Source of the DNA: a virus
DNA: 23,170 nt
IMG/VR virus record: IMGVR_UViG_3300024348_000263
Location: 1-23,170 of that record
Reading direction: 5' to 3' (one strand)
The position numbers and the translations under genes were made by a program. Positions 818-23,170 of the stretch are shown piece by piece (the stretch's first letter is position 1; each line of letters begins with the position of its first letter). The notes under the pieces are model-generated. The model did no database searches. It was given only the letters and a program-made list of their open reading frames with translations, and was not told where the DNA came from.

Positions 818-845
818 AGCAAACCTTTTTATGGTTTATTTGCGG

Positions 846-851
846 TATAAT
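846..851 (+). promoter_or_regulatory. TATAAT -10 box of a predicted leaderless promoter for the 985-aa fibre gene
   Basis: A perfect TATAAT at 846-851 lies in a 40-base gap between stop 815-817 and ATG 858. Exactly 6 bases separate the hexamer from the A of the start codon, so transcription would begin at or next to the ATG. No Shine-Dalgarno lies upstream of 858. No good -35 box is seen at 17 bases spacing. The same 6-base arrangement recurs before 19098 and 21047. Confidence 0.65.
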
Positions 852-857
852 TAAAGC

Positions 858-3815
858 ATGGCGACCAATTTTCCAACCTCAAAAGATACCCTGGTTAATC
901 CAAATCCTTCGGATTCCGTCCAGGTAGTATCTCATGCCGCCCAACATGCAAATGCAAATGACGCAATTGAAGCCCTTGAAACTAAGGTTGGAGTTGATGG
1001 CTCAACAGATACATCCTCTCACGACTATAAAATAGCCAACCTTGCTTCTTATGCAATTAGCTATGAGACCGCTCAAGATGCAGCAGGAGCCTTACTAGGA
1101 CATAGCAATCACACTAACCTTATAGCGACTTATGATGATATCCTAAATGAAGTAAGGCTATCAGTTGCCGCCCCAGATGTGGCAAGAACTATTTATCAAA
1201 CTGCAATAAATGAAACAGGATCCACTATTGCAAAAGGAACGCCAGTTTATATTTCTGGAGCAGTAGGCGCATCTGGAAAAATAAGGGTTGCCCCAGCATC
1301 AGCAAATTCAGAAGCTTTATCTTCTAAGTCATTTGGACTTGCAGCAGAATCAATTATTAATGGCGCAGAAGGCCAAATAATTACTGAGGGTCTATTAACC
1401 AATGTAAACACAGTTGGAGCATCAGATGGAGATGCACTGTGGCTTGGATCAACCGCTGGCACAGTTTTATATGGATTTGCAAATAAACCAGTTGCTCCAG
1501 TTCACATGGTTTCTCTTGGAGTTGTCGTAAGAGGTGGAAACGAAAATAACGGATCTATATTTGTTAAAGTTCAAAATGGATTTGAGCTTGAAGAATTACA
1601 CAATGTTTTAATTAAGTCTCCAGCAAATACGCAAGCGCTAGTATACGATTCAAGTTCAGGTTTATGGAAAAACATAAGTATAAATGCTGGAACTGGAATA
1701 ACAAAAACATATAATGCGGTTCCCCCAAATTATCGTGGAGATTACGACAACGGAGCATATTACGCAATAGACGACGTTGTTAGTATTCCAGTAGGAAGTC
1801 CATATGGAATAGTTGGATCATATTTTATAAGATCTGGAAATCCAGGAAATCCAGGATATCCACCAGAGCCAGGTGGAGCAACAAATGCTTCATGGACACT
1901 GTATAGTTTTTCTTCAAGTATTACACTTGGGGTTGACACATCCGTTATAGCAACACAAACTTATGTAAACACAGCCGTATCAAATTTAATTGACGCTGCC
2001 CCTGGAGCTCTAGACACATTAAATGAGTTAGCTGCTGCGATTAATGACGATGCTTCATTTGCCTCTACTATAACTACTTCTCTGGGAACAAAACTAAATA
2101 TAACAGATGCATCTACCACCTATCTTGCACTCTCAGATACAGATGAAAGAATTCAAGATGTTGTTGGAGGAATGGTTTCAACAAATACAGAAGGTGGTAT
2201 AGAAGTAACGTATGACGACCCTACTGGTAAATTAAATTTTAGTGTCACTCCAGCCCTCATAACAGATTTTGTTGACGCAGCCCAAGATGCTACAGCATCA
2301 CTTCTAAATCACTCAGACCATAATAAAATTACTGCAACTTATGACGATAGCACAAATAAAGTTATTTTAAATGTAGACGAACCAATAAAAGTTAGCGTTT
2401 CAGCGCCAGCAAACCCAATAAATGGAGATAGCTGGTTTGATCACCAGACTGGAGTTCTTTATGTTTATGACGGATCATTTTGGATTGAAGTTTCAGGCGG
2501 AACAGGCTTTACAGCAAGTGGCGTAAACGATCTTCCAGAAACAATTGGATATCTTGATGGTGCAACAGGAAATATTCAAAATCAATTAAACACAAAAGCG
2601 CCGCTTTTATCTCCAGCATTAACTGGAGTTCCAACATCAACAACAGCAGCAGTTGACAACAACACAACACAAATTGCAACAACAGCATATGTAGTTGGGC
2701 AAGGATACGCAAAGTCTGCATCACCAACATTTACTGGCACAGTTGCTCTTCCCTCAACGACATCTATTGGAACAATAACTTCTACAGAGCTATCTTATGT
2801 TGATGGAGTTACTTCTTCTATACAAACTCAAATTGATAACAAGTCCCCTTCTTTATCCCCAACATTTACTGGAAACGTAGTTCTGCCATCAACAACTTCA
2901 ATTGGAGCGGTGTCAAATACCGAAATATCGTATCTAGATGGGGTAACAAGCTCTATTCAAACACAGATTAACTCTAAGCTTTCTACAACAGCATTTACTT
3001 ATGCAGGAATAACAAAAGCCACTTATGCAACAGTAGGATCACTTCCAGCTTCAGCAAGCAATACTGGAAAAGTTATGTATGTGCAAGCAGATGGGTACAT
3101 GTACTACTCAACTGGGTCCACTTGGATAAAAGTAGCAAAGTTTAATGATACAACATCACTTACATATAACATAAATGCTTTAACTGACGTAGACACGGGA
3201 ACAGTTGCCCCACTAGTAAATCAGGTTTTGGGATGGAATGGAACGAACTGGGTACCAGTCAATCAAAGTTCTTCAACACCACAGTTAACTATGAATGACT
3301 TAACTGATGTTGATTTTACTACACCACCAGTACTTGGAGACTATGTTGTTTATAATGGCACCAGCTGGTTTGCCTACACACCAGACCCAGCAACGCCACC
3401 GTTGTTTGCTGATCTAGAAGATGTTACCGTATCTGTAGATGAAATTGCTTATCCAGCAATAACAAGATTAAATGTTACTGCAAACGGGGCAACAGGATAT
3501 GTGTTTGGAGATCAATACAATAATACTACTAACCCAACAGTATATGCTATATCTGGAACAACAATTGCATTTGCTTTAAATGTTGCGGGTCATCCATTTT
3601 TAATACAAACATCGGGTGGCGCTAACTACAGCACTGGATTGGTGCATGTAGATCAATCGGGAGTAATCAGTACTGGAGCGGATGCTCAGGGAAAAACTTC
3701 AGGAACTCTTTATTGGAGAATCCCATTTAACGTATCTGGAGGATATAGGTATCAATGCAGCATACACCTAGGAATGAATGGTGTAATTACTATTAAGGAT
3801 ATATCAGCGATATGA
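858..3815 (+). CDS. Large tail fibre-like structural protein with C-terminal cupredoxin-like domain
   Basis: The protein has 985 residues. The N terminus carries a motif common in phage tail proteins: AQHANANDAIEALETKVGV (28-46) followed by SSHDYK. A module of the form AxLLxHSxHxxLIATYDD occurs near 74-94, again near 487-507, with a degenerate copy between. A short PxNPINGDSWFD...LYVYDGSFW block lies near 520-545. NTTQIATTAYV, a known fibre motif, follows near 600, then two near-identical 45-residue repeats (622-711) and two LTDVD...WNGTxW blocks. The C terminus (about 872-985) looks like a cupredoxin: GHPFLIQT with His912, a Tyr-rich middle, and YRYQCSIHLGMNG with Cys967-x2-His970-x2-Met973. 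The family role is host contact or tail-fibre structure; copper binding is an inference. It overlaps the next gene by four bases (ATGA). Confidence 0.88.
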   Translation: MATNFPTSKDTLVNPNPSDSVQVVSHAAQHANANDAIEALETKVGVDGSTDTSSHDYKIANLASYAISYETAQDAAGALLGHSNHTNLIATYDDILNEVRLSVAAPDVARTIYQTAINETGSTIAKGTPVYISGAVGASGKIRVAPASANSEALSSKSFGLAAESIINGAEGQIITEGLLTNVNTVGASDGDALWLGSTAGTVLYGFANKPVAPVHMVSLGVVVRGGNENNGSIFVKVQNGFELEELHNVLIKSPANTQALVYDSSSGLWKNISINAGTGITKTYNAVPPNYRGDYDNGAYYAIDDVVSIPVGSPYGIVGSYFIRSGNPGNPGYPPEPGGATNASWTLYSFSSSITLGVDTSVIATQTYVNTAVSNLIDAAPGALDTLNELAAAINDDASFASTITTSLGTKLNITDASTTYLALSDTDERIQDVVGGMVSTNTEGGIEVTYDDPTGKLNFSVTPALITDFVDAAQDATASLLNHSDHNKITATYDDSTNKVILNVDEPIKVSVSAPANPINGDSWFDHQTGVLYVYDGSFWIEVSGGTGFTASGVNDLPETIGYLDGATGNIQNQLNTKAPLLSPALTGVPTSTTAAVDNNTTQIATTAYVVGQGYAKSASPTFTGTVALPSTTSIGTITSTELSYVDGVTSSIQTQIDNKSPSLSPTFTGNVVLPSTTSIGAVSNTEISYLDGVTSSIQTQINSKLSTTAFTYAGITKATYATVGSLPASASNTGKVMYVQADGYMYYSTGSTWIKVAKFNDTTSLTYNINALTDVDTGTVAPLVNQVLGWNGTNWVPVNQSSSTPQLTMNDLTDVDFTTPPVLGDYVVYNGTSWFAYTPDPATPPLFADLEDVTVSVDEIAYPAITRLNVTANGATGYVFGDQYNNTTNPTVYAISGTTIAFALNVAGHPFLIQTSGGANYSTGLVHVDQSGVISTGADAQGKTSGTLYWRIPFNVSGGYRYQCSIHLGMNGVITIKDISAI
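2721..2990 (+). repeat. Two tandem 135-base coding repeats in the fibre gene
   Basis: Codons 622-666 and 667-711 encode two 45-residue units that share SPTFTG, LPSTTSIG, and SYxDGVTSSIQTQI. The copies are highly alike in protein and partly in DNA. A related but more diverged stretch with LDGATGNIQNQ and SPALTG precedes them at about 2549-2640. This is a typical repeat of trimeric fibre shafts; copy number could change by recombination. Confidence 0.85.
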
Positions 3816-12207: not shown

Positions 12208-13710
12208 ATGGCAGTAGCAAATAGCACGATACAGCTAATCATTCCAGGTATTGAAAAGCTTATTGCAGATAGCTTTGTAACAGCAATTGCATCTAATGCT
12301 ACAGTTCAGGCCATCCAGACTAATATTGCAAATGCTGGAAGCATAACAGATATTCAGAACGCCTTAGCATTGCTAACTACTGATATTGGTAACCTTCCAA
12401 ACAAAGAGCCACTCCCATACTTTGCAACATGGTCTAACTTCAATAACGATCCAAGAGCTTCTATTTACAATAGCGATATGCGTGAAGTATATAATGGAAA
12501 GCCAGATACAAACGCTGAAATGTGGTCAGCATGGACTGGAAACAACTATACAAACGGAAACATTGGCTCTAATGGTTGGACATCTAACTGGATGGGTTCA
12601 ACATCATTCTACCAAGCAGATACTCATTGGTACTTTAAGGTAAGCGAAGGATATAACAATCCAGGGTTTGCAATGAATCCAGACGGTCAAGATAGCTGGA
12701 TGCCTTTCTGGGGGGTAATTATAGGACTTACTGGAAAAAGACAAAAGATTTCTCTTTATTCAAATGGCTCATCATTAAGAGTTATGCCAAGAGGAGTTCA
12801 AAACGGAGATCTAGAGCGAATTGATTTAAACTCAGCTACTTATGCAACCTGGTTTGGCGGAACCCAGTATGGAATGGTTTGCTATAACGAAAGAACAGGA
12901 ACTCTTGTAGTTATAGAGGCTAAGGATGGAAACAATAACTATCGTTTACATAGATGGATTAATACTGGAGAAGGAAGATCTTTCAATCAGTCTAATTATC
13001 ATGCTGGATTACTTCACAGATTTGTTTCTGAAGCAAAGTCTGGAATTACGCAAAATGGTACAGCTTCATATAACTTCTATGACTTTCAGTGGCAGGCAAA
13101 CTCTTCTCAGAACTATAATGAGTCAAGATACCGTATGCGTATTGTAGTTGGAGACAATGGAATTATTGGAATGCAAAGATTCGTTCCTTCTAACATTACT
13201 CACTATGCAACATATACGCCTTCATCTCAAACTCTAACAACATCATTTAATACTATATCAAATACTACATCTTATGGTATTGAGCAGGGCAATAAGTACG
13301 GAGCTAGACATATGATTACCTGGGATAATTACTGGGTAGCAGCATATAACGTTTACTACTACTATGGTTCTGGAATGAATGTATTCTTTATTGATACCAG
13401 AGATCCAAGAAACTACTTTATTGGCCAGTACGCAGATACAAGCAACGGATGCGCCCTTGTCCCAATTGATAGAAATAAATTTATGTGGTCATACCATGTG
13501 TCCAACTCAGATGGAACATCTGGACAAAGACTTGCTATTGTAGATCTTGAAGGACCTAGAGTTACTGGTAGAACTTTGTCTGGAACTATTGCTAACGGTG
13601 CAAACATAGTACTTGACAAAAACGTAATGAATGGTATATTTGATACTAAGTATACAAGCACAAACTATACACTATTATTGCCAGTTCAGCGCTGGCCGAG
13701 AAATATTTAA
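12208..13710 (+). CDS. Putative tail adhesin A (paralogue of 14474-16000)
   Basis: The protein has 500 residues, with AGGAGA at 12195-12200. The first 55 residues are Ile/Ala/Asn-rich and probably helical. From LPNKEPLP on, it aligns along its length with the 508-aa protein at 14474. Shared blocks include TYATWFGG (Tyr212 here, Tyr213 there), SRYRMR, HYATY, YYYYG, DTRDPRN, YADTSNGC and a C-terminal DTKYTSTNY. Trp, Tyr and Asn are abundant, as in sugar-binding and receptor-binding proteins. The length, position and duplication suggest a receptor-binding protein; no catalytic motif is recognised. The next gene, 18 bases downstream, is a small acidic protein that may assist its assembly. Confidence 0.82.
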   Translation: MAVANSTIQLIIPGIEKLIADSFVTAIASNATVQAIQTNIANAGSITDIQNALALLTTDIGNLPNKEPLPYFATWSNFNNDPRASIYNSDMREVYNGKPDTNAEMWSAWTGNNYTNGNIGSNGWTSNWMGSTSFYQADTHWYFKVSEGYNNPGFAMNPDGQDSWMPFWGVIIGLTGKRQKISLYSNGSSLRVMPRGVQNGDLERIDLNSATYATWFGGTQYGMVCYNERTGTLVVIEAKDGNNNYRLHRWINTGEGRSFNQSNYHAGLLHRFVSEAKSGITQNGTASYNFYDFQWQANSSQNYNESRYRMRIVVGDNGIIGMQRFVPSNITHYATYTPSSQTLTTSFNTISNTTSYGIEQGNKYGARHMITWDNYWVAAYNVYYYYGSGMNVFFIDTRDPRNYFIGQYADTSNGCALVPIDRNKFMWSYHVSNSDGTSGQRLAIVDLEGPRVTGRTLSGTIANGANIVLDKNVMNGIFDTKYTSTNYTLLLPVQRWPRNI

Positions 13711-14473: not shown

Positions 14474-16000
14474 ATGGCAATTTCAACTAGCAGCACATCG
14501 ATAGACCTTCCTGGAATCGGAGGTACATTTGTAACAAATATGGATGCTGCTTTAAACTCTAGCCCAGTCATGCTCAACATCCTTTTAAACTCAAACATAT
14601 CTTCAGGATTAAACACTCTTACAACTACAGTAAATACGCTAAGAACGTCTGTAGCAGACCTTCCAAACAAATTTCCTTTACCTACATTTGCAACCTTTGC
14701 AAACTATCAGAATACTCCAGGATGGACAATTTATGATAGCGAAATGCAACCAATTGGCGGAGCAAATGGTTCTACAGACTTTGAAATTCAAAATGATTAC
14801 GCAGGACAAAACTATACTACAAATAACTGGTCATCATCATCATTAACAAACAGCTGGTCTGGAGCAACACCAATGCATCAGCAAGATGGAGACTGGTTTG
14901 CAAACATCCCAGGCAGAGGCTTTGGCCCAGAAGGCATTTGGGCACGTAATCGTGGAACAATGGATTCACATATGCCGTATTTTGGAACAGTCATTGGAGA
15001 CCGTGGAAGAAGACAACATATGTCTTTAAGATCTGGAGATGCAGGTCTTCAAATTGCAATGAGAGGAGCTCCTAACTATATGGAAAACCTCTCACTAAAC
15101 AACTCGGCATATGCAACCTGGTTTGGCGGAACAACCTACGGAATGGCCTCTTATAATCAAAGACAGAGAAAGCTTATTGTGATTGAAGCTAGAGATGCAT
15201 CCAATAACTATAGAATTCACGTATGGAGAAACACAAACTTAAACAGAGATTTAAATGCAGAGCAGTATGATGTTGGAACTCTACACCTATTCTTGTCTGA
15301 AGCAAAGACTGCAGGAACTCCAGCAGCGACAACAACTGGCGTTTACTACTACTACAATGATTTCCAATGGCAGCAAGATAACTCACAGAGCTACACAGAA
15401 TCACGCTACAGAATGCGTGTTACAGCTGGAGACAACGAATTTGTAGGCTTATCACGATTTGTCCCTTCCACTACCACACACTATGCAACATATCTTCCAA
15501 ATATTGCAGGAACATCTGGAGGAACATTAACAACTAGAGGCGGAATTACAAATACAACCTCATATGGCTGGGACCAGGGAGTACAGTACGGAATTAGAAG
15601 CAATATAACTTGGGATAACTATTGGTTAGCTTCATACTCTCCATATTACTACTATGGCGCAGGAATGTGTACAGTATTTAATGATACTAGAGATCCACGT
15701 AACTTCTATTTTGCAAGATATGCAGATACATCAAACGGATGCCAGTTAGTTCCATTTAACGAAGATAAGTTTTTATTTAATGCATCAGTTGAAAACTCAG
15801 ATGGAAACGTAGGAATGAGACTTTCAGTTGTAGACCTAGGCGGAATATTTAGATTTGGAAGAGACGCAACTACATCTGGAATTACAAACGGAGCCACTAT
15901 TAACTTAAGACCAACAACAATGTTGTATACGTTTGATACTAGATACACATCTACAAACTATCCAGGATTGATGCAGCCTACCTCTTGGACAAATGGGTAA
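14474..16000 (+). CDS. Putative tail adhesin B (paralogue of 12208-13710)
   Basis: The protein has 508 residues, with AGAGGAG about 6 bases before ATG 14474. It is colinear with adhesin A from LPNKFPLP to the C terminus. Conserved blocks: AYATWFGGTTYGM (from about 211), LHLFLSEAKT, ESRYRMRV, FVPSTTTHYATY, YYYYGAGM, NDTRDPRN, ADTSNGCQLVPF, NSDG. Variable regions are the N terminus (about 1-55), about 95-155, and the loop near 350-365 (IAGTSGGTLTTRGGI). This pattern, a fixed frame with variable patches, fits two receptor-binding proteins of different specificity. The next ATG lies 3 bases beyond the stop. Confidence 0.82.
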   Translation: MAISTSSTSIDLPGIGGTFVTNMDAALNSSPVMLNILLNSNISSGLNTLTTTVNTLRTSVADLPNKFPLPTFATFANYQNTPGWTIYDSEMQPIGGANGSTDFEIQNDYAGQNYTTNNWSSSSLTNSWSGATPMHQQDGDWFANIPGRGFGPEGIWARNRGTMDSHMPYFGTVIGDRGRRQHMSLRSGDAGLQIAMRGAPNYMENLSLNNSAYATWFGGTTYGMASYNQRQRKLIVIEARDASNNYRIHVWRNTNLNRDLNAEQYDVGTLHLFLSEAKTAGTPAATTTGVYYYYNDFQWQQDNSQSYTESRYRMRVTAGDNEFVGLSRFVPSTTTHYATYLPNIAGTSGGTLTTRGGITNTTSYGWDQGVQYGIRSNITWDNYWLASYSPYYYYGAGMCTVFNDTRDPRNFYFARYADTSNGCQLVPFNEDKFLFNASVENSDGNVGMRLSVVDLGGIFRFGRDATTSGITNGATINLRPTTMLYTFDTRYTSTNYPGLMQPTSWTNG

Positions 16001-19097: not shown

Positions 19098-19442
19098 ATG
19101 CTAAATAAAATGGGTAGAGCGAAAGTTATTGCAGACAAGACCAAGTATGGTGTCTATGTTTGGGAGATGCCAGATGGCAAATGGGTTGGGGATGACGAAG
19201 GTCACTACATGCTTATACCAGCTGTCTATGGAGATGCGGAAAAGATTAAAGTTTTAAAAGAAGCTGCAGAAGGCTATGGAGTAACTGAAGGTGAACCAAA
19301 GTTTCTTCCAGGACGACGCAAAGTCTCTGACGAAGAGTACGCAATGCAAGAAGCAAGGCTACAGGCTGGCTTAACTCCAGACCCTTGGGACCTTGGAGAA
19401 GGTTTAGACGCCGCAAAGAGGATGGTACAAAATGGCCGCTGA
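19098..19442 (+). CDS. Conserved-looking small protein upstream of portal, function unknown
   Basis: The protein has 114 residues. It starts at a predicted leaderless ATG and has an N-terminal beta part with VYVWEMPDGKWVGDDEGHYM (16 or so to 37), then a helix (AEKIKVLKEAAEGYG), GRRKVSDEEY, and a C-terminal LTPDPWDLGEGLD. No signal peptide, membrane segment or known motif. The frame overlaps the portal gene by 11 bases, so both are likely expressed together. Its constant position before the portal would suit a packaging or head-assembly role, but I do not recognise the family. Confidence 0.78.
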   Translation: MLNKMGRAKVIADKTKYGVYVWEMPDGKWVGDDEGHYMLIPAVYGDAEKIKVLKEAAEGYGVTEGEPKFLPGRRKVSDEEYAMQEARLQAGLTPDPWDLGEGLDAAKRMVQNGR

Positions 19443-21000
19443 GTTTATTGAAGATACAGACACTATTGAAATTAGTGGATCTGGAGATATGTTTGCTGGA
19501 GTCCGTGGAAATGAATACGGAGACCCTTTTAGTCGTGATCTAGATAGCATTAAAAAAGTAAACGGATTTAGTACTAACTTTAGAAAGAAAGTCGCTAGAA
19601 CAGACTTCTCAAAGTTTTTAAGAGGCGATGGTTCAGAAAGTACTGCAATCGTAGAGCCATTTATGATTACAGGATACAGCATACTTGATGTTGTAATGCC
19701 TCCTTATAATTTAGACTATCTAGCCAAAATATACGAAATCTCATCTCCACACTATGCAGCAGTAAATGCTAAGATAGCAAACATTGTTGGCTTGGGATAT
19801 GATTTTGTAGAGAGCGAAGCAACAAAAGAAAGACTTGCGGACATCGAAGATGAAAAAGGTCTTGAAAGAGCTCGTAGAAAGCTTGAAAGATTAAAGCTTC
19901 AAATGCATAACTGGCTTGAAAATACTAATGAAGAAGAAACGTTTACAGAAACATTAGCTAGAGTTTGGAAAGACTATGAAACAACTGGCAACGGATACCT
20001 AGAGGTTGGAAGAAAAAATACAGGTGAAATAGGCTATATTGGACATGTACCTTCAGCGTCAATGCGTGTTAGAAGACTGAGAGACGGCTTTGTTCAAATT
20101 ATTGGGAATCAGGCTGTATTCTTCAGAAACTATGGAGATACAGAAACTCCAAATCCTATGACTTCAGACACAGTGCCTAATGAAATTATTCACTTTAAAA
20201 ACTATACTCCAACAAATGGTTTTTACGGTGTACCAGATATTATTTCCTCAAAGAATGCTATGGCAGGAAACGAGTTTGCTGCAAGATTTAACTTAGACTA
20301 TTTTGAGAACAAAGCAGTGCCTAGATACATTATCACAGTTAAGGGTGCAAAGTTGTCCAATGATGCTGAAAGAAAGCTCCTAGAGTTCTTCCAGACTGGT
20401 TTAAAGGGCAAGAATCATCGTTCTCTATACATACCTCTTCCTTCAGATAATAATGATTCTAAGGTTGAATTTAAGATGGAGGCAGTGGAGGCAGGAGTTC
20501 AAGACTCCTCATTTGACAAGTACAAGAGTGCAAATAGAGATGAGATACTTATGTCTCATAGAGTTCCTATTAGCAAGATTGGAACCCCACAGGGTGTATC
20601 CCTTGCAAACGCCAAAGATGCAGACAAGACCTTTAAGGAGCAAGTATGTAGGCCTTCCCAGAGAACTCTTGAAAAGAGACTTGGAAAGGTAATTTCAGAA
20701 AAGACAGATATGTTCCTTATTAAATTTAATGAGCTAACCCTTACCGATGAAGACACTCAGTCAAAGATTGACGAGAGGTACTTACGCATGAAGGTTATTG
20801 TTCCTAATGAAATTCGTGCTAGAATGGGACTACAAGGTTTATCGGGTGGAGATGTTCCTGTCGAATTAAATCCCAAGGCAGCCGCTGAAGCAACAGCTCA
20901 GGCAACTGGCAACAGACAAAGGGATCAAGAAAGACAGGCAAATCAGGCAGACAATGATGGAAGCAGAAATGCTCAAGGCGAAGGCCGTCAAACTCAATAG
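19432..21000 (+). CDS. Portal protein (HK97/PBSX type)
   Basis: The protein has 522 residues, the usual portal size. It forms the dodecameric DNA channel at one capsid vertex. Evidence: an N-terminal segment, then LDYLAKIYEISSPHYAAVNAKIANIVG (about 99-125, cited in part), a GNGYLEVGRKNTGEIGYIGH wing strand, NYTPTNGFYGVPDII (about 256-270) and the stem/clip helix after NEFAARFN. It continues with SHRVPISKIGTPQ and ANAKDADKTFKEQ (about 375-405), a strong portal signature, then LEKRLGKVI. The C-terminal 40 residues are Gln/Ala/Asn-rich and probably disordered. The gene follows the 114-aa protein and precedes the protease, the standard head order. ATG 19432 is preceded by GAGGATGG. Confidence 0.93.
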   Translation: MAAEFIEDTDTIEISGSGDMFAGVRGNEYGDPFSRDLDSIKKVNGFSTNFRKKVARTDFSKFLRGDGSESTAIVEPFMITGYSILDVVMPPYNLDYLAKIYEISSPHYAAVNAKIANIVGLGYDFVESEATKERLADIEDEKGLERARRKLERLKLQMHNWLENTNEEETFTETLARVWKDYETTGNGYLEVGRKNTGEIGYIGHVPSASMRVRRLRDGFVQIIGNQAVFFRNYGDTETPNPMTSDTVPNEIIHFKNYTPTNGFYGVPDIISSKNAMAGNEFAARFNLDYFENKAVPRYIITVKGAKLSNDAERKLLEFFQTGLKGKNHRSLYIPLPSDNNDSKVEFKMEAVEAGVQDSSFDKYKSANRDEILMSHRVPISKIGTPQGVSLANAKDADKTFKEQVCRPSQRTLEKRLGKVISEKTDMFLIKFNELTLTDEDTQSKIDERYLRMKVIVPNEIRARMGLQGLSGGDVPVELNPKAAAEATAQATGNRQRDQERQANQADNDGSRNAQGEGRQTQ

Positions 21001-21034
21001 ACTGGTATTTGCGTTTTAATCTACTAAGAGATAT

Positions 21035-21040
21035 TATAAT
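21035..21040 (+). promoter_or_regulatory. TATAAT -10 box of a predicted leaderless promoter for the protease gene
   Basis: A perfect TATAAT lies in the 46-base gap after the portal stop, with exactly 6 bases before the A of ATG 21047. No Shine-Dalgarno is near: the closest AAGAG is about 17 bases from the start. A possible TTGCGT at 21009 is 20 bases upstream, too far for a good -35. This promoter would serve the protease, scaffold and capsid genes. Confidence 0.65.
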
Positions 21041-21046
21041 AACACT

Positions 21047-22396
21047 ATGGAAATAACTAAGTCTAACTGGACCACTAGCGGCAACAACATTAAGTTGAGC
21101 ATTCCGTTCTCCAAGGTCGATCAAAATAAGAGAACTGTGTCTGGTTATGCAACATTAGACAATGTAGACTCACACGGAGATATTGTTTCTTCAGAAGCAA
21201 GCCTAGGTGCGTTTATGAGATTCCGTGGAAACGTAAGAGAAATGCATCAGCCTATGGCGGTAGGAAAAGTTGTTGCATTTGAGCCAAAGAGCTACTACGA
21301 TCCAAAAGAAGGTAAAGTTTATAATGGTGTTTACGTAACATCATATGTTTCAAAGGGTGCACAGGACACTTGGGAAAAAGTTCTTGATGGCACTCTTTCT
21401 GGTTTTTCAATTGGCGGATCAATTAAGAAATCAGACAATGAGTTTATTGAAGGCCAAGAAGAGCCAGTAAGAATTATTAAAGATTATGACCTAGTGGAGC
21501 TGTCTTTGGTTGATAACCCAGCCAATCAGCTAGCAAACATTTTTTCTATTGAAAAAGTTAATGGGTCTATGGTTATGAAAGGAATAGCAACGGGAGTTAC
21601 TCCAGAAAATATTTTTTGGTGTGCACAAGATTCGGTTGCAATAACATCAGAAAATGACACAGCTACTTGCGATAACTGCTCATGCAATATGGAGCAAATT
21701 GGTTGGGTAGAATCAACTGATGTCACCAAGTCGGAATCAATTAAAATGATTGTTGATTCATACATTAAAAAGAATTCTGAGATTGAAAATATCGCAGAAG
21801 AACGTCGGGAAGCTAACGACGGCGTTGATTTAGTAAGAAACACAGCCAATGAAGGAGGTACAGAAGTGGCAGAAAATACAGAACTTCAAACTGAAGTTGT
21901 AGATGCGCCAGCAGCAGCAGAAGAAGTTGCAGTTGAAGCACCAGCAGCTGAGGAAGTAGTTGAGGCAGCAGAGGTTGCCGCAGAAGCTCCAAAGGGCGAT
22001 GAAGAAGTTGTCGAAAAGGCAGCAGATATTCAAGAGATCGCCGTTGAAGAGTTAGATTTCGCAAAGAAGCTTGATGAACTCAAGTCGTTCTTCGCTGATA
22101 ATTTTGCAAAGAATGCATCTGAGAATGCAACAGGTCTAGAGTCAGTACGTAACAATGTTGAGGAACTAGTTAAGGGTACAGAATCAAAGATCGAAGATCT
22201 TGCAAAGAAGTACGATGAAATTTCTGGCATCGTAAAGGGCATCACAGATGCTCTAACAACAACAGAAAAAAGAATTGATTCAGTTGAAACATCAACTGCT
22301 ATCAAAAAGTCAGCAGACCTTGGCGGGTCCAATGATGAACCAATTAAGAAAAGCAAGTGGAACGGCACTTTCCTCGGTGTTCGTGAAATTCTCTAA
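21047..22396 (+). CDS. Prohead protease fused to scaffold (XkdF/U35-like)
   Basis: The protein has 449 residues. The first about 170 match phage prohead proteases of the herpesvirus-type serine protease clan: VDSHGDIVS, EMHQP with His67, DGTLSGFSIGG with Ser121, and VELSLVDNPAN (151-161). Residues 192-213 hold Cys192, Cys208, Cys211 and Cys213, with CAQD and CDNC resembling a degenerate zinc ribbon. From 274 on comes a scaffold: an Ala/Glu/Val-rich low-complexity run, then long helices (FAKKLDELKSFFADNF, EDLAKKYDEISGIVKGITDAL) and a C-terminal KKSKWNGTFLGV. The protease would cut the scaffold and capsid during head maturation. Start 21047 lacks a Shine-Dalgarno and is predicted leaderless. 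An internal start exists at 21866. Confidence 0.9.
   Translation: MEITKSNWTTSGNNIKLSIPFSKVDQNKRTVSGYATLDNVDSHGDIVSSEASLGAFMRFRGNVREMHQPMAVGKVVAFEPKSYYDPKEGKVYNGVYVTSYVSKGAQDTWEKVLDGTLSGFSIGGSIKKSDNEFIEGQEEPVRIIKDYDLVELSLVDNPANQLANIFSIEKVNGSMVMKGIATGVTPENIFWCAQDSVAITSENDTATCDNCSCNMEQIGWVESTDVTKSESIKMIVDSYIKKNSEIENIAEERREANDGVDLVRNTANEGGTEVAENTELQTEVVDAPAAAEEVAVEAPAAEEVVEAAEVAAEAPKGDEEVVEKAADIQEIAVEELDFAKKLDELKSFFADNFAKNASENATGLESVRNNVEELVKGTESKIEDLAKKYDEISGIVKGITDALTTTEKRIDSVETSTAIKKSADLGGSNDEPIKKSKWNGTFLGVREIL
21852..21868 (+). promoter_or_regulatory. Internal Shine-Dalgarno and GTG start within the protease gene
   Basis: AAGGAGGT (21852-21859) is a near-perfect anti-anti-SD sequence. It is followed, 6 bases later, by GTG 21866, in frame with the protease (codon 274). 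This is the strongest Shine-Dalgarno in the window, in the middle of a gene whose own start has none. It would let ribosomes make the scaffold alone. Confidence 0.65.
21866..22396 (+). CDS. Predicted nested scaffold protein (in-frame internal start)
   Basis: Starting at GTG 21866, the same frame gives 176 residues with no protease domain: an acidic Ala/Glu/Val/Pro region (about 1-55), helical segments (FAKKLDELKSFFADNF, ESKIEDLAKKYDE) and a basic tail (IKKSKWNGTFLG). Scaffolds are typically acidic, helical, and made in excess of the protease, and the lambda C/Nu3 pair is made by just this kind of in-frame nesting. Ile codons change at this point: 1 of 20 is ATC before it, 5 of 10 after, matching the highly expressed capsid gene. 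The start signal and codon change are seen; separate synthesis is inferred. Confidence 0.6.
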   Translation: MAENTELQTEVVDAPAAAEEVAVEAPAAEEVVEAAEVAAEAPKGDEEVVEKAADIQEIAVEELDFAKKLDELKSFFADNFAKNASENATGLESVRNNVEELVKGTESKIEDLAKKYDEISGIVKGITDALTTTEKRIDSVETSTAIKKSADLGGSNDEPIKKSKWNGTFLGVREIL

Positions 22397-22419
22397 AGAC
22401 AAGGCAGGTGAAAATACAA

Positions 22420-23170
22420 ATGAGTAATGAACTATTAGAAAAAGCAATAGTTACATCACAGACTGGCGACGGCAAACTCGGTGTATCAGGTGATGATGCA
22501 GCACGTGGTGGCCTATTAAAGCCAGATCAAGCTAATCGATTTATCGATTACATGTTTGATGCAACAGTTGTAACAAAGTTTGCTAGAACCATTCGCATGC
22601 GTTCTGACATTCAAGAAATCGACAAGATCGGTGTAGGCGAAAGAATCCTTAAGGTTGCTACAGAAGCATCTGACACAGGAGCAGCACAATCAGTTGTGTT
22701 CGCAAAGATCTCTCTTGCAACAAAGAAGCTCCGTTTAGATTGGGAGCTATCAACTGAATCTTTAGAAGACGGCATTGAGGGCCAAGACCTAGAAGACCAC
22801 ATCGCAAGAATGATGGCAACTCAGGTTGGTAACGATGTTGAGGATCTTATCCTTAACGGAGTTGGAACAGGCTCAGATACACTTCTAAAAGCATTCAAGG
22901 GTGTTACAAACATCGCAAAAGATGAGGCACATGTTGTTGATGCAGCAGGTGCAACAATCACTAAGGGTATCTTCAATGATGCTCTTAAGAAGATGCCACG
23001 CCGCTACAAGCAGCGTCGCAACCAGCTTCGTTTCCTTACAGGAAGCAACTTGGTACAGGACTACTTATACAGCCTAACATCACTTCCAGGATCACCAGAA
23101 GATATCGCATCTTCTATCGTTCGTGGAGATGTTGCAGCTAATAACGGTGCTCCAGGTGGCGTAATTCCTT
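22420..23170 (+). CDS. Major capsid protein, HK97 fold (partial, 3' end outside window)
   Basis: ATG 22420 is preceded by AGGTGA 8 bases upstream, 23 bases after the protease stop. The 250 residues present include GGLLKPDQANRFIDYMFDAT (30-49), TIRMRSDIQEIDKIGVGERI, ATKKLRLDWELSTESLEDGI, DHIARMMATQVGNDVEDLIL and RRYKQRRNQLRFLTG. These blocks are characteristic of HK97-fold capsid proteins in actinobacterial phages. The frame stays open to the right edge. Ile is encoded by ATC 12 times, ATT 4 and ATA 1, unlike the upstream tail genes, fitting very high expression. There is no obvious long N-terminal delta domain, consistent with a separate scaffold. Confidence 0.92.
   Translation, partial: MSNELLEKAIVTSQTGDGKLGVSGDDAARGGLLKPDQANRFIDYMFDATVVTKFARTIRMRSDIQEIDKIGVGERILKVATEASDTGAAQSVVFAKISLATKKLRLDWELSTESLEDGIEGQDLEDHIARMMATQVGNDVEDLILNGVGTGSDTLLKAFKGVTNIAKDEAHVVDAAGATITKGIFNDALKKMPRRYKQRRNQLRFLTGSNLVQDYLYSLTSLPGSPEDIASSIVRGDVAANNGAPGGVIP

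Follow-up and report, generated by a model that had tools for sequence, protein, structure and literature searches.

Does a single reading frame in the head gene cluster of this virus encode both a head maturation protease and the head scaffold? The window, by which we mean the whole stretch of the virus record that was analysed (23,170 nt, GC 39%), places an S78 protease gene between a portal gene and a major capsid gene, as assigned with Pfam and PHROGs:

19432-21000, portal gene, upstream neighbour of the S78 ORF (Pfam, PHROGs)
21047..22396, plus strand, putative head maturation protease-scaffold fusion ORF, 449 aa, Peptidase_S78 / phrog_9427, ATG without a Shine-Dalgarno (SD) sequence, predicted leaderless
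22406..22411, plus strand, SD (AGGTGA) of the major capsid gene
22420..23170, plus strand, major capsid protein gene, truncated by the window end (Pfam, PHROGs)

The ORF at 21047-22396 matches the PF04586 (Peptidase_S78) profile with 31 bits against a curated cut-off of 21, and the PHROGs family phrog_9427, 'head maturation protease', covers residues 1-448 of its 449 (E 9.8e-137). We propose, with a probability of roughly 0.87 as judged from sequence comparison, that this one frame is read in two start modes, yielding a fusion of protease and scaffold as well as a free scaffold of 176 aa. Elsewhere in the window we note, by eye, two tandem and similar tail-fibre-like proteins of 500 and 508 aa (12208-13710 and 14474-16000), apparently a duplication.

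The proposal turns on a second start site deep within the gene:

21852..21859, plus strand, internal SD AAGGAGGT, kept in 61/62 representatives
21866..21868, plus strand, putative internal start codon GTG, codon 274, which is GTG, ATG or TTG in 62/62 representatives
21866..22396, plus strand, nested in-frame ORF, predicted free scaffold, 176 aa, 18.9 kDa, pI 4.3

The initial annotation had described AAGGAGGT followed after 6 nt by an in-frame GTG, and its coordinates and frame proved correct on re-reading: the spacer is ACAGAA, and (21866-21047)/3 = 273, such that the GTG is in frame with the ATG at 21047 and leaves 176 residues to the stop at 22396. Recomputing the nested product, for which 176 residues, a Met-Ala-Glu-Asn N-terminus and about 19 kDa had been given, returned 176 aa, M-A-E-N and 18.9 kDa. 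When 24 starts of the window are compared, the internal SD is the longest match (8 nt), and the protease ATG has none.

What would the shorter product contain? An AlphaFold model built on an alignment of 53 sequences, all from contigs, reached a mean pLDDT of 63 and a pTM of 0.35, the latter a low value that is expected for two units joined by a floppy linker. The predicted layout is as follows:

21047..21517, plus strand, protease domain, residues 1-157, Pfam S78 match, AlphaFold pLDDT about 75-85
21815..22057, plus strand, predicted disordered linker, residues ~257-337, holding the internal start, AlphaFold pLDDT<50
22058..22315, plus strand, predicted long helix of 86 residues (338-423), coiled-coil-like, AlphaFold
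22295..22375, plus strand, conserved C-terminal tail TAIKKSxDLGG...SKWxGxFLG, residues 417-443, invariant alignment columns

The ordered blocks of the protease part (pLDDT 72-85) lie within residues 11-150, and judging by the alignment columns alone His67, Ser121 and Glu151 are invariant across the 53 aligned sequences. A further beta segment and helix are modelled up to residue 256, and a disordered tail follows the helix 338-423. Because codon 274 falls inside the disordered linker, the short product would be a complete unit consisting of an acidic linker, the long helix and the conserved tail. The tail motif TAIKKSxDLGG...SKWxGxFLG is the most conserved section of the scaffold part, and residues 417-443 are probably a contact with the coat or portal protein or a site of processing by the protease. 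A Foldseek search of the PDB with the predicted model gave no usable match, and Pfam assigned no scaffold family to the nested part. Weak PDB sequence matches over the helix, to trimeric coiled-coil proteins, were read as reflecting composition and heptads and not homology.

Is the internal start conserved? Relatives were collected as 80 loci by single-sequence search, with more by profile search, and to these were added 13 cultured Streptomyces and Rhodococcus phages and two MAG contigs. The resulting 150 complete genes were reduced to 62 representatives (<90% identity), which comprise uncultivated phages, Streptomyces Stanwilliamsviridae and the Rhodococcus phages Trina and Peregrin. In 61/62 representatives the hinge contains an in-frame start preceded, at a distance of 4-10 nt, by an SD of at least 6 nt; the figure is 60/62 when only ATG and GTG are counted. 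The exception (L153) has AAGGAGGT 12 nt from its ATG, and in L157 the internal start is TTG; both MAG contigs (L175 and L176) carry the internal SD and start as well. With the hinge defined for these counts as codons 225-300, synonymous shuffling, which preserves the protein and codon usage, yields a mean of 6.4 of 62 (maximum 12) and permutation of the hinge codons yields 4.3, against the 60 observed. For an SD of at least 8 nt, the observed count is 49/62 versus 0.9 and 0.2, respectively. We conclude from these null models that the pairing of SD and start in the hinge is not due to chance. The conservation in homologues on which the initial annotation had let its reading depend leaves that reading unrefuted, since the signal is kept at the nucleotide level family-wide.

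Several of these patterns concern nucleotides and not amino acids. For example, the Gly-Gly pair in the hinge is written GGAGGT in 55/61 cases, and none of the 131 Gly-Gly pairs elsewhere in the gene is written in this way. In the L058/L060 clade the SD occupies a different codon phase (AAG GAG GAT, GAG GAG GAA) and encodes Lys/Glu, not Gly-Gly, and still precedes an ATG, a change of phase showing that it is the nucleotides that are conserved. Similarly, the aligned internal start is GTG in 46 representatives, ATG in 15 and TTG in one, and on a tree built from the protease domain alone we count at least nine swaps, only among GTG, ATG and TTG and none to a non-start codon. Codons 264-276 are among those with the gene's strongest synonymous constraint, by a simple score that is partly dominated by one large clade.

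These observations bear on the reading in which only the full-length fusion is translated and cleaves itself in the linker to free the scaffold, much as phage P2 gpO does, the SD-like sequence being incidental. Cleavage in the linker is plausible given its disorder in the AlphaFold model, and there is a precedent in herpesvirus pUL26, which cuts itself at two or more sites (PMC4498786). Self-cleavage, however, predicts neither the conservation of the SD nucleotides through a change of codon phase, nor the limitation of codon 274 to start codons over at least nine swaps, nor the use of GGAGGT for Gly-Gly only at the hinge, and as a replacement for internal initiation we consider it quite improbable. 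Cleavage of the linker could occur in addition to internal initiation.

Likewise, the site has the properties of a start and not of a place where ribosomes are merely slowed. Within coding regions, SD-like sequences have been suggested to slow ribosomes, and the internal SD does lie at a domain boundary in the AlphaFold model, where a programmed pause might aid folding of the protease. Such a pause requires no start codon, yet one is always found 5-9 nt from the SD (12 nt in one row of the alignment), and it is mostly GTG, though GTG accounts for only 146 of 2583 Val codons overall (~6%). Furthermore, the mRNA around the internal start is weakly folded, as at starts (mean -4.8 versus -10.3 kcal/mol per 60 nt), and on average only 9% of the windows of a gene are as open. 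A pause without initiation is thus extremely improbable in our estimation. We take the nucleotide conservation together with the open mRNA to be the marks of a translation start, as opposed to a pause site or a protein motif, and the internal start is very probably functional.

The two parts also remain joined. The reading frame is unbroken in 150/150 complete genes. Candidates for separate protease and scaffold ORFs were rejected, as the partial matches are contig ends or divergent tails and all 150 complete genes are single-frame; when the scaffold part was used as query, only protease genes appeared among the annotated-phage matches listed. Among distant S78 genes from Chloroflexi and other MAGs (L177-L188) an internal start is not consistently present, whereas an SD near the gene's own start is common, and the trait therefore belongs to the phrog_9427-type family and not to S78 proteases at large.

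Three further observations concern the hinge. In L019 it holds an insertion of ~66 residues upstream of the SD, with the frame kept and the SD-start unit intact. In L021 and most of a 40-row clade, a stretch IAKQANAEGGNE at about codons 252-264, just upstream of the internal start, is near-invariant at the nucleotide level, beyond the SD itself; its possible roles are a ribosome standby or enhancer element and a cleavage site. Finally, the protease gene of CW39, a related phage, is the target of a published CRISPR spacer, aagtccgaggacaccgaagg with PAM AGG (PMC13350457); the spacer contains the same GAAGGAGG, and we infer that its target is the same internal SD site.

How, then, is the full-length protein started? 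Its start is ATG in every representative, and the claim of the initial annotation that this start lacks an SD holds across the family: in the window there is none, and in 55/62 representatives no 4-nt match to an SD occurs 4-11 nt before the ATG, the other seven having weak 4-mers only. What precedes the ATG is a predicted promoter:

21009..21014, plus strand, -35-like element TTGCGT, which is TTGCCT in most relatives (61 representatives aligned)
21032..21040, plus strand, -10 region TATTATAAT, read either as TATTAT with a 17-nt spacer and 9 nt to the ATG or as TATAAT with 6 nt to the ATG

In the 61 representatives the pattern is sigma70-like, TTGCCT-N17-TAaAAT, with the -10-like hexamer (TAaAAT, TATAAT or TATTAT) 6-10 nt before the protease ATG and a -35 of TTGCCT or a variant of it; the spacer sequence varies among relatives, and the boxes and distances are constant. 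With a -10 element at this distance, transcription is predicted to begin at the ATG or within ~4 nt of it, in agreement with the leaderless protease start that the initial annotation had assumed. The consensus score is only moderately raised (at least 9 in 45/61 versus 7% of mononucleotide shuffles). The full pattern occurs exactly once, at the protease and nowhere else, in 6/8 genomes or fragments (23-131 kb), and a reversed control pattern occurs in none of the eight. Thus the stronger argument for the predicted promoter is its repeated position and this genome count, not its consensus score, and the fusion is probably made from a leaderless mRNA. The protease starts deposited for StarPlatinum, Tomas, Trina and Peregrin (L088, L090, L092 and L093) seem to be placed slightly too far upstream: the ATG that agrees with both the family alignment and the promoter is found 2-4 codons further downstream. 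Another candidate for leaderless initiation is found at window positions 818-860, where the ATG of a 985-aa tail-fibre-like ORF at 858 lacks an SD and follows TATAAT at a distance of 6 nt (GGTATAATTAAAGCATG).

A promoter could also lie inside the gene, and the nested product could then come from a separate mRNA, as in herpesvirus UL26.5. A 9-of-12 sigma70 match is indeed present at 21720-21747, but such matches occur in the region at chance level (three found versus 2.8 expected), and over the 180 nt upstream of the start in the 62 relatives the score is 8.19 versus 7.93 for shuffled sequences. We regard transcription from an internal promoter as very improbable and retain internal initiation on the shared mRNA.

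Is the nested product a scaffold? Scaffolds are typically acidic, long-helical and encoded just upstream of the capsid gene. We think it likely that the nested product is the head scaffold, on the basis of its helix, its acidity, its synteny, the lack of another scaffold, and the layout shared with lambda C/Nu3 and Mu I/Z. In phage Bmoc no gene from portal to tail is annotated as a scaffold, and in the other cultured relatives read no scaffold annotation adjoins the protease. The major capsid proteins of the relatives have 350-381 aa, and most have ~30-45 residues before the conserved start of the fold, GGLLxPEQSxRF (~60 or more in L058); ~30-45 residues are too short for an HK97 delta domain.

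Nested protease/scaffold genes are already known in lambda, Mu, PaMx73 (predicted) and herpesviruses. The lambda C and Nu3 genes resemble the present case: an internal start lies in frame within the gene of a head protease, the 3' end and stop are shared, and capsid genes follow. They differ in that the lambda protease is S49 whereas the present one is S78, and in their signals: AGGAGG precedes C and the annotated start of Nu3 lacks an SD, so that signal strengths look reversed here. No similarity to the lambda counterpart proteins was detectable where compared. Likewise, in Mu the scaffold start of Z lies in frame inside I and has an SD (AGGAG, 9 nt), and the protease start of I has none. The SD of Z is modest, whereas that of the putative scaffold here is the window's best; the Mu protease belongs to a different family, PF10123, with no profile match between the two, and no similarity was detectable between the Mu scaffold and the nested product. 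The in-frame internal start and shared stop codon of lambda C/Nu3 and Mu I/Z are present here, and on this evidence we class the gene as one that would work like theirs, not as a homologue.

UL26 and UL26.5 are genes of a eukaryotic virus with a Ser-His-His protease, and the scaffold comes from a separate mRNA. Their likeness to the present gene is that the protease and scaffold genes share one frame where they overlap and have the same 3' end (PMC4498786). In PaMx73, an internal start has been predicted at Val177 of gene 27 (PMC4378225). HK97-type heads, with the S78 protease gp4 and a capsid delta domain, share the Pfam protease class and the adjoining HK97-fold capsid gene; they differ in the ~100-residue N-terminal extension of the capsid protein, as none of delta size is found here and the putative scaffold is fused to the protease. 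The distant S78 proteases of Vibrio phage Ceto and Marinomonas P12026 have 203-229 codons, an SD and no internal start. The gene belongs, over its full length, to the phrog_9427 proteases of Stanwilliamsviridae and of the Rhodococcus genera Trinavirus and Weaselvirus, which have the same neighbours; the records read are annotated as a single protease, with the nested start unannotated, and our literature search returned no description of a nested start for these phages.

In the mechanism that we infer, which extends to the making of both products, the scaffold function, tail-mediated recruitment of the protease and the product ratio, the sigma70-like promoter abutting the ATG would give a leaderless mRNA, and leaderless initiation on it would produce the 449-aa fusion of S78 protease and scaffold. 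From the same transcript, the strong SD and GTG or ATG within the disordered linker would direct synthesis of the C-terminal 176 residues alone. This acidic, mostly helical free scaffold would co-assemble with the capsid protein of the neighbouring gene, the scaffold tail of the fusion would carry the protease into the procapsid, and the protease would then remove the scaffold. Recruitment of the protease by the scaffold tail of the fusion would explain why the frame is unbroken in 150 genes, despite the insertion in L019.

What would set the ratio of the two products? That the leaderless start is the low-yield one, as the initial annotation had supposed, we consider less likely than not, and a low-yield leaderless step is doubtful in actinobacterial hosts. 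Leaderless translation in mycobacteria is 'comparably robust' to leadered translation (PMC4633059), and the stoichiometry may therefore be set otherwise. The strength of the internal SD, self-removal of the protease or mRNA processing could each account for the ratio of fusion to scaffold just as well. It is also conceivable, if rather unlikely, that a leaderless (70S) start for the fusion and an SD-led (30S) start for the scaffold are kept in order that the ratio of protease to scaffold tracks the host ribosome pool.

Finally, the nested gene supplies the probable missing scaffold for a group of phages with well over 100 sequenced cultured members, in which the gene has so far been annotated only as 'capsid maturation protease' and to which annotators could add a gene. 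It also extends the nesting of a scaffold, here a putative one, within a protease gene to S78, a class unrelated to the proteases of lambda (S49), Mu (PF10123) and herpesviruses, a distribution suggestive of repeated selection for this layout or of an old layout blurred by time. The conservation of a predicted leaderless start together with an SD-led start in one frame offers a natural and cultivable test case for the sharing of ribosomes between start modes. If the link to the ribosome pool is true, head assembly would respond to the state of that pool in the host across Streptomyces, Rhodococcus and uncultivated phages.
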